In this document: piece by piece, positions 6,551 through 38,473 of the stretch | How the letters are laid out: every line of letters begins with the position of its first letter | Position numbering within the stretch: the stretch's first letter is position 1 | Assembly: GCA_016200225.1 (NCBI GenBank) | Contig: JACQFD010000005.1 | Location: forward strand, 1 to 64,000 | Length of the DNA: 64,000 nt | Direction of reading: 5' to 3' | Source of the DNA: Planctomycetota bacterium | Lineage (GTDB): Bacteria > Planctomycetota > UBA1135 > JACQFD01 | Notes under the pieces: generated by a model | Seen by the model: the letters and a program-made list of their open reading frames with translations, nothing else | Told to the model about the DNA's origin: nothing | Databases searched by the model: none | Translations under genes and position numbers: made by a program

Positions 6551-6683
6551 GGGTGTGTGTGGCGGGGTTGGGTCGGGGCGAGTTGCGCAGGCGAATGTAT
6601 AGATATCAAACGCTTCGCGTTTGATATCTATACATTCGCCGAGCACCTGCCGAGCCGCCGACCCAACCCTGCCACACACACCC
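6551..6683. repeat. Large structured palindromic element 1 (nested inverted repeats)
   Basis: A 133-bp nested palindrome. The outer arms 6551-6576 and 6658-6683 (26 nt) are complementary with one mismatch. The inner arms 6591-6613 and 6617-6639 (23 nt) are perfectly complementary around a TTC loop. Between outer and inner arms lie asymmetric shoulders of about 14 and 18 nt. The reverse strand reads GGGTTGGGTCGGCGGCTC, then GTGCTCGGC, then the hairpin, then GCCTGCGCAACTCGC. The same shoulders flank an unrelated hairpin at 38152-38244. It lies in the 288-bp gap between the glycosyltransferase and the secreted protein at 6774. Nothing in it looks coding. It could act as a terminator, recombination site or mobile REP-like unit. 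Confidence 0.85.
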
Positions 6684-37180: not shown

Positions 37181-38017
37181 ATGATAACTCTCCGCAACAC
37201 ATTCATTTCCGCCGCGCTCCTCGCGACGGCGGCGGCACAATCCGGCGGCGGCGCGCCCCAGTCAAAACCGTTCCCCGGCCTTCGGCTCGAAGTTAAGATT
37301 CAGACCGCGACGTTTTCGCCGATGGAACCCATCGACGTCGACGTCGCGATCATCAACGAAACGACCTCGGCGATCCGCGACGTTCCGATTCTGACCACGG
37401 TTAATGATAATATTACATTCGATTTAACCTATCGCGGAACCCCCCTCGCGATCGGCCAGGCCGTGGCCCGCGGACCCGAAAAGGAAAATTCCGCGCTCAC
37501 GCTCGAACTCGGCTCTCGCGCCCGTTCGAATGGTAAATTTACATTACTTTACGACTGGGACACCGGCGCCTTCCCGTTTACAAAAGCCGGCGAATACTCG
37601 GTCCGCCTGACGGCCCACTCCACCGACAAGCAACGCGCGGTCGTCTCCAACGTCGCGTCGTTCGCCATCACGGATATCGCCGAGTCGACGCGCCTCGAAC
37701 TTCAAGAGCTTCATGCGACGGAAGCTTATCAATATTCCATCGCTCCCGAGCGCATTCTTAGCGATCGCGAGGCCGCTCTCAAAGTTAAGAACTTGATCGC
37801 ATTCAGGACCGCCCACCCGGCTTCGCCGCACATTACGGAGTTCCCATTCATCGTCGCTCTATACTACGATTTCAAAGCGTCCGTGACCCACGGCGAGGAC
37901 GAAGTCGTTGTTAAAGAATCGGCGCGATTGAGAGATCAGTATCTTAAGGAATATATTACCAATCGCCGCGGAAGACACTTGGCCGAAGCTCAGGGAATCG
38001 CAGAAACTCGTAAGTAA
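37181..38017 (+). CDS. Secreted beta-sandwich protein of unknown function
   Basis: Protein of 278 residues with a signal peptide (ISAALLATAAAQS) and an Ig-like N-terminal half: RLEVKIQTATFSPMEPIDVDV, EYSVRLTAHSTD. This resembles the BsuPI/CARDB style of beta sandwich seen in exported proteins, but I do not recognise a specific family. The C-terminal half (about 165-278) is helical and contains HITEFPFIVALYYDF. The leader before its ATG (37113-37180) is AT-rich without a Shine-Dalgarno site. It follows the metzincin in the same direction after 68 bp and could be its operon partner. The stop codon is directly followed by the repeat mosaic at 38.02-38.65 kb. Confidence 0.62.
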   Translation: MITLRNTFISAALLATAAAQSGGGAPQSKPFPGLRLEVKIQTATFSPMEPIDVDVAIINETTSAIRDVPILTTVNDNITFDLTYRGTPLAIGQAVARGPEKENSALTLELGSRARSNGKFTLLYDWDTGAFPFTKAGEYSVRLTAHSTDKQRAVVSNVASFAITDIAESTRLELQELHATEAYQYSIAPERILSDREAALKVKNLIAFRTAHPASPHITEFPFIVALYYDFKASVTHGEDEVVVKESARLRDQYLKEYITNRRGRHLAEAQGIAETRK

Positions 38018-38022
38018 AAATT

Positions 38023-38132
38023 GCTCTGGCGCCGCTGGGCGCTTGCGCTGCGCACGCCGCGTGCCCTACGCGGGGTAGCGCTCTCGCGCCGCTGGGCGCT
38101 TGCGCTGCGCGCGCCGCGAGCCCTACGCGGGC
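38023..38132. repeat. Two-copy 53-nt tandem repeat
   Basis: Copies at 38023-38075 and 38080-38132 (period 57) agree except for a few substitutions. Each contains GCCGCTGGGCGCTTGCGCTG followed by CGCCGCG and CCCTACGCGGG. The repeats are not in a gene. The second copy runs directly into palindromic element 2. Confidence 0.8.
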
Positions 38133-38151
38133 GGCGAGTTGTGCGCTCGAC

Positions 38152-38244
38152 GGGTTGGGTCGGCGGCTCAGACAAGTGCTCGGCAATAGTAAGAATGTCG
38201 GCCGCGACGCGGCCGACATTCTTACTATTGCCTGCGCAACTCGC
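38152..38244. repeat. Structured palindromic element 2, shoulders shared with element 1
   Basis: The stem arms 38182-38206 and 38208-38232 (25 nt) are perfectly complementary with one central base. The left shoulder 38152-38181 reads GGGTTGGGTCGGCGGCTC, a short variable part, and GTGCTC before the stem, and the right shoulder ends GCCTGCGCAACTCGC. Both shoulders match the reverse strand of element 1 (6551-6683) almost base for base. The stems have no similarity. Unlike element 1 there are no outer complementary arms, so the two are members of one family with different states. Confidence 0.85.
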
Positions 38245-38473
38245 AGGCGGTCGCGCGACACGCGTGTGGCCGCGCTTGCGCGGGCACGCGCGCGCCGCGA
38301 CGGCCGAGCAGCCGCGCGTATATTAGTGTTCGGTGCCATCGTTAGTACTGGCGGGCGGCTGGTCCGTGGCGCAAGACAGCGGCGGCGAAGGCGACGCCCC
38401 GTCGCGTCGAGCGTGTGCCACGCGCTTTGGTGTCAGTCGCGACAGGGCGTGGCCGGAGCATCGCCGCTGCGCC

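Follow-up and report, generated by a model that had tools for sequence, protein, structure and literature searches.

The window analysed here, the whole 64,000-nt stretch of planctomycete DNA, contains a palindromic element at positions 6551-6683 and a second one near 38 kb. An earlier note on this DNA reported that the two elements share their shoulder sequences and that the stems between these shoulders are perfectly paired and wholly different. How might the shoulders of a hairpin and the pairing of its stem be preserved without preserving the sequence of the stem itself? We consider it rather probable that the two hairpins are copies of an interspersed palindromic element that is mobile and non-autonomous, similar in kind to REP and RPE elements, in which a conserved core is combined with exchangeable stems.

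Two palindromic elements in the window

The features of the two elements, and of a repeat that flanks the second, are as follows.

6551..6577, + strand: element 1, left lower arm, which pairs with 6657-6683
6578..6589, + strand: element 1, 5′ core strand GCGAGTTGCGCA
6590..6640, + strand: element 1, variable upper hairpin with a 24-bp perfect stem and a 3-nt loop
6640..6655, + strand: element 1, 3′ core strand CGAGCACCTGCCGAGC, a variant of CGAGSACNTGTYYGAGC
6657..6683, + strand: element 1, right lower arm
38023..38135, + strand: flanking GC-rich repeat units (GCTCTGGCGCCGC...), found ahead of many copies
38140..38165, − strand: element 2, the one lower arm that is left, its partner being lost
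38166..38182, − strand: element 2, 3′ core strand, which reads CGAGCACTTGTCTGAGC on the − strand
38182..38232, − strand: element 2, variable upper hairpin with a 25-bp perfect stem and a 1-nt loop
38233..38244, − strand: element 2, 5′ core strand, GCGAGTTGCGCA on the − strand; truncated past 38244

The palindromes reported earlier are real. The outer arms of element 1 (6551-6576/6658-6683, 26 nt) are 96% complementary, and its inner arms (6590-6613/6617-6640) are 100% complementary around a 3-nt loop, with a length of 24 nt instead of the 23 nt given before. The hairpin arms of element 2 (38182-38206/38208-38232, 25 nt) are 100% complementary around a 1-nt loop. These three are the top inverted repeats within 120 nt in the 64-kb window. 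The long shoulder GGGTTGGGTCGGCGGCTC occurs at exactly two sites in the window when up to 3 mismatches are allowed (0.09 expected). The shoulder GCCTGCGCAACTCGC has two exact copies in the window, and its count at 3 mismatches is not above chance.

The description of the stems as wholly different goes too far, since across the whole family intermediate stems connect several copies, although the two window stems cannot be aligned end to end. The inner stems of both window elements are perfect, whereas the genome copies L002, L007, L008 and L020 have imperfect stems.

Element 2 is truncated, and an unrelated repeat stands in place of its right lower arm after 38244. GC-rich interspersed modules are present at 38023-38135 and 38245-38420 (GCTCTGGCGCCGC units; GTTAGTACTGGCGGGCGG...; GACAGCGGCGGCGAAGGCGACGCC...). 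The units at 38023..38135 begin immediately past the stop codon of a gene that ends at 38017, and elsewhere in the home genome such a unit often starts right at the stop codon of the neighbouring gene. Modules from the window also recur at contig ends and next to both subfamilies of the element (see below), forming a mosaic around it.

A conserved internal loop between two variable helices

Each shoulder forms one strand of a single internal loop (GCGAGTTSCGCA ... CGAGSAC(N)TGTYYGAGC), which has a helix on either side. On the GCGAGTT... strand, the order of the parts is lower helix, core GCGAGUUSCGCA, upper helix with its apical loop, core CGAGSAC(N)UGUYYGAGC, and the other side of the lower helix. 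The element is ~100-130 nt long, and its core consists of 28 nearly invariant letters. A short inner helix within the core is formed by GU(U)SC, which pairs with GSAC around a one-base bulge. A G-C pair of this inner helix is swapped to C-G between two subfamilies.

Both helices exhibit extensive covariation. When 23 copies from the home genome are aligned, 96.5% of the cells are paired, and 151 two-sided changes are present compared with 57 after shuffling; in slid controls of this alignment, pairing falls to 26-44%. An alignment of 30 copies from mixed phyla has 148 two-sided cells over the whole structure, compared with 65 for shuffled and 41-82 for slid controls. In the lower helix of these 30 copies, 12 of the 14 pairs vary, all of them with two-sided changes. 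Where the core faces the lower helix, tandem G-A pairs (5′ GC-GA, 3′ GA-GC) could form beside a 5-nt bulge, an arrangement that by analogy would resemble a kink-turn.

Distribution of the family

The earlier note argued that the idea of an element family would fail if the shoulders were confined to the two window sites, or if other copies had non-palindromic cores. Neither condition was borne out: a large family was found, and the idea was not refuted. In the 5.3-Mb draft of the home genome, both shoulders separated by a free gap match nine times (0 for the reversed pattern), and the right shoulder by itself has 24 exact copies. About 19 further copies belong to a second subfamily (GGCTGCGGAACTCGC), such that the copies in this genome fall into two subfamilies. 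A covariance model finds ~40 copies there, several of them at contig ends. One truncated copy (L015, G000:C11:26373) is located directly behind a tRNA-like gene.

Among 60 relatives of the order, the same sequence was found in none, save for two weak matches (G017 L159 and G001 L160) that have the loop, but not the stems, in common with the home family. Each is a lone, diverged copy from another family of the order, and its stems are longer than, or unlike, those of the home copies. A lineage-specific repeat was first suggested by the shoulder-exact search, which covered the 60 relatives and placed the repeat in the home genome only; this was overturned by a search with the loop alone.

The latter search used a pattern limited to the two core strands and covered bacteria and archaea with one genome for each species. 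It matched at least 114 stretches, whereas a rough estimate of chance matches is about two. Carriers listed are Adlercreutzia/Enterorhabdus, other Coriobacteriia, Singulisphaera MAGs, Latescibacterota and Eisenbacteria, in addition to Myxococcales (Myxococcota) including Plesiocystis, Omnitrophota, Phycisphaerales and others. Nine genomes together contain 203 core matches and 0 for the reversed pattern. The 3′ core strand is present 42 times in A. caecimuris B7, 35 times in A. hattorii, 59 times in a Singulisphaera MAG, 28 times in the home genome, 17 times in a complete Latescibacterota chromosome, and 10 times each in Plesiocystis and a Myxococcales MAG; its reversed pattern gave 0 in every genome counted. 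The six high-copy genomes counted have 10-59 scattered copies each, and the lineages that carry the element are patchy. Conservation also extends to features that the pattern did not impose. The S-S pair is invariably C-G (125 of 125), AGC comes next in 120 of 125, and the upper helix starts, directly after the 5′ core, with G in all 125.

The two-part core pattern has 0 matches in viral contigs, and a similarity search of phage and plasmid collections gave no real match. Eight viral contigs (L322-L329) match the 16-nt 3′ core strand, which is the 3′ half alone. With Rfam 15 at a permissive threshold, nothing scored above the gathering score, and the sub-threshold hits were chance hairpin matches and one tRNA only. 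A full-text literature search for the core strings returned nothing relevant. This hairpin family, which ranges from planctomycetes to gut actinobacteria, apparently is undescribed.

Stem pairing, assortment and replacement

The left lower arms pair far better with their own right arms than with those of other copies, with scores of 28.4 versus 11.8 in A. caecimuris and 31.7 versus 11.4 in A. hattorii. Furthermore, three classes of lower arms and several classes of upper hairpins can be distinguished, and nearly all combinations of the two occur.

Stems also differ at a single orthologous site upstream of der. The lower arms there differ between L381 and L383 (der 96.7% identical), each being paired to its own partner, and the upper hairpins differ among L380, L382, L383 and L384. 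With so little divergence between L381 and L383, independent point mutations are implausible, and the difference requires either replacement by another copy or coupled copying. Thus, stem replacement is observed at an orthologous Adlercreutzia site within ~3% flanking divergence. On a finer scale, compensated changes are present between the nearly identical copies L006, L017 and L021.

Some copies are arranged in unusual ways. In the nested copies L232 and L257 (Coriobacteriaceae RUG13125), a whole element is located within the upper stem of another, and the arms are repeated. Inverted, REPIN-like pairs whose starts are ~90-710 nt apart are found at L201, L211, L231, L275 and L360-L364, and tandem same-strand pairs are found at L367, L372 and L373 (Singulisphaera and Plesiocystis).

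Placement, presence and absence

Gene context was assigned with a codon model, because open reading frames alone give too much noise at high GC content. The majority of copies lie between genes. When the element is read on the GCGAGTT strand, the neighbouring gene on its 3′ side is directed towards it in 82 of 112 cases, with the stop codon at a median distance of ~70-130 nt. The same gene neighbourhood of the element is kept in several Adlercreutzia species, and in several other Adlercreutzia genes the core is in frame and encodes an ASSA...EDCLSE peptide.

Presence and absence were compared at the der loci of Eggerthellaceae. Between plsY and gpsA, L380, L382, L384, L385 and L386 carry an element. 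L381 and L383, whose der protein is 96-98% identical to that of L380, have none at this site, nor do the more distant L387-L392. In L381 and L383, the empty site looks like the product of a deletion across AAGG repeats. A further element, upstream of der, is in frame within the preceding gene in L380-L384 and L386. It is absent in L385, though the der sequences of L385 and L386 are 96.0% identical. Comparison of empty and filled sites at these loci revealed no clear target-site duplication, a check that the earlier note had proposed, and no gain event at these loci is polarized beyond doubt.

Strand bias of non-Watson-Crick pairs

Isolated non-Watson-Crick pairs in the middle of the lower helix, read on the GCGAGTT strand, include 29 distinct cases of G-U and 8 of A-C (p ~7.5e-4), a count in which neither kind was favoured in scoring and which is uncorrected for shared descent. 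The raw counts for the same region are 132 and 20. In agreement with this bias, the opposite strand of the home alignment shows A-C but no G-U cells. The upper helix has no such bias. The outcome depends on scoring choices: before the restriction to the middle of the helix the counts were 161 G-U and 116 A-C, and whole-arm counts for Adlercreutzia are nearly even because the loose arm ends are included. The bias in the lower helix suggests that one folded single strand, either RNA or ssDNA, is the working form of the element.

Proposed mechanism and alternatives

In our reading, the conserved identity of the element resides in its two-strand core, consisting of the internal loop and the short inner helix GU(U)SC/GSAC. 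The lower and upper helices that flank this core are free in sequence provided that they pair. Most likely, some enzyme recognizes the core once a single strand that carries it, either RNA or ssDNA of the form GCGAGUUSCGCA...CGAGSACNUGUYYGAGC, has folded. If the core is recognized in this form, then only copies that fold could spread. Moreover, because the helix sequence would not be read, stems could drift with compensation, and whole stem cassettes could be exchanged between copies through recombination or conversion. Insertions persist mostly just downstream of genes, with some in frame inside genes.

Among the three ideas offered in the earlier note, a REP-like mobile unit with a replaceable hairpin comes closest to this proposal. 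It agrees with the existence of a family, the different stems under one core, their free assortment and the presence/absence pattern, but no nearby tyrosine transposase and no clear target-site duplication accompany the element. We also put forward, as a tentative extension, that the family may represent a cross-phylum, SINE-like class of mobile RNA or ssDNA. Its members would be moved in trans by an enzyme that reads only the two-strand internal-loop core, and the helices would be free, copy-specific and continually exchanged cassettes.

It is doubtful, though conceivable, that these hairpins are instead structured RNAs that serve the host, such as 3′ UTR elements with a protein-binding core that stabilize or end transcripts, and that they were amplified by duplication rather than by transposition. 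The invariant core, strong covariation and strand bias are what such an RNA would exhibit, and its position ~70 nt from gene ends and the neighbourhood conserved in several Adlercreutzia species would fit as well. However, a host function does not readily explain 10-59 scattered copies per genome in patchy lineages, presence and absence among species that are 96-98% identical in der, in-frame copies in unrelated proteins, or inverted and nested copies. In addition, when the mismatches are read in the mRNA sense of the nearest gene, A-C predominates over G-U.

The conserved loop, the assortment of cassettes and the excess of G-U over A-C would be left unexplained if the stems were kept perfect and renewed solely by a process at the DNA level, such as template switching or the correction of one arm against the other, and their structure were under no selection. 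Some stems also carry uncorrected mismatches. We therefore regard this explanation as improbable, even though it would be compatible with long perfect stems having 1-3 nt loops, with the compensated changes in the nearly identical L006, L017 and L021, and with the nesting in L232/L257. The earlier suggestion of stem renewal purely by DNA template switching likewise leaves the strand bias unaccounted for.

Candidate mobilizing enzymes

A mobile element that encodes no enzyme would be moved in trans, and three enzyme families were examined. Y1_Tnp (RAYT) is absent from the carriers G063, G064, G066, G067 and G070, RVT_1 (reverse transcriptase) from G063, G065 and G077, and Transposase_20 (IS110) from G064, G065, G071, G076 and G077; these absences carry less weight where genomes are drafts, and G063 and G067 are complete or nearly so. 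Since each family is missing in some carriers, none of the three can be the general mobilizer.

It is very improbable, then, that the hairpins are REP/REPIN-type elements moved by RAYT, a Y1 HUH transposase. They do resemble REPs in being palindromic and extragenic, in forming inverted pairs in places, and in being targeted by the IS110/IS1111 family (PMC1525189). Nevertheless, Y1_Tnp is missing from three carriers, the Singulisphaera MAG with 59 copies, A. caecimuris B7 with 42 and the complete Latescibacterota chromosome with 17, and the only Y1_Tnp gene of the home genome has no core beside it. The nearby tyrosine transposase sought by the earlier note thus amounts to one distant gene in the home genome, and the enzyme is absent from several carriers.

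Comparison with known elements

To our knowledge, the copies of known bacterial interspersed palindromes have their stem sequence in common and are mostly confined to related bacteria. What is new in the present family is a loop core common to distant phyla, with both helices free and stems that move between copies. The combination of a conserved loop and disposable stems separates what a mobilizer would read from what merely must fold. The core also provides a simple search key for many copies, and the family constitutes a natural experiment on the renewal of long perfect palindromes in genomes.

MITEs are recognized by terminal repeats common to all copies and by target duplication. Both they and the hairpins are short, non-coding, dispersed and presumably moved in trans, but the arms of the hairpins differ from copy to copy and no clear target duplication was seen. 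The attC sites of integrons are folded single-strand sites in which conserved unpaired bases accompany a variable terminal hairpin. Despite this likeness, and although IS1111 members also target attC (PMC11187229), the hairpins can hardly be sites of this kind with a hairpin exchanged by integrase, because the copies are single and dispersed with no cassette arrays, and their lower arms vary as well.

Like REP, BIME and REPIN sequences, the hairpins are dispersed, extragenic, palindromic and multi-copy, form inverted pairs and are located at gene ends. They differ in their length of ~100-130 nt, in having two helices around a cross-phylum core and copy-specific stems, and in that several carriers lack RAYT; the single Y1_Tnp gene of the home genome is not flanked by the elements. 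Rickettsia palindromic elements (RPE) are palindromes of ~100-200 bp, some of which are in frame inside unrelated genes (PMC10969869). Palindromy and in-frame insertion into protein genes are common to both. Compared with the published description of RPEs, the present elements are mostly intergenic, their stems are not conserved between copies, and one core is found in several phyla.

IS1111-type insertions in the core

Among the contig ends of the home genome, 18 are ends of an IS1111-type insertion, ten of them left and eight right. All 18 are located at the same position of the core (CTCRRAC | AAGTSCTCG), which this insertion sequence uses as its landing site. The family of IS1111-type insertion sequences is known to be RNA-guided. 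The guest has 12-bp subterminal repeats (ATGAGAAGGCCG/CGGCCTTCTCAT), extended by 7 bp on the left and 3 bp on the right, which fits the published IS1111 definition of 11-13 bp subterminal repeats with extensions of these lengths (PMC11187229). Only the N-terminus of its transposase is assembled, and the visible start MKHSTPFYTIGIDLGKNMSHVCVLDR (IGIDLGKN), judged by eye, is like that of a DEDD transposase. The PF01548 profile has no match in the home draft assembly, and the 26-aa transposase fragment, a short query, has no PDB match.

The targeting of the core parallels that of REPs, into which members of the IS110/IS1111 family insert (PMC1525189, PMC11187229); IS621, ISPa11 and ISPpu9, for instance, are found in REP sequences (PMC1525189). 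The core is thus an additional natural target for IS1111-type elements. Although the guests have the subterminal repeats, extensions and apparent DEDD-type start of the IS1111 group (IS110 family), they interrupt the core and are dispensable for the hairpin family. The IS110 loci of other carriers lack core halves at their flanks that would clearly indicate an insertion. At two contig ends of the home genome (L060, G000:C7 start; L059, G000:C24 end), IS1111-type right ends are found with the hairpin, or the hairpin and an arm, cleanly deleted beside the core.
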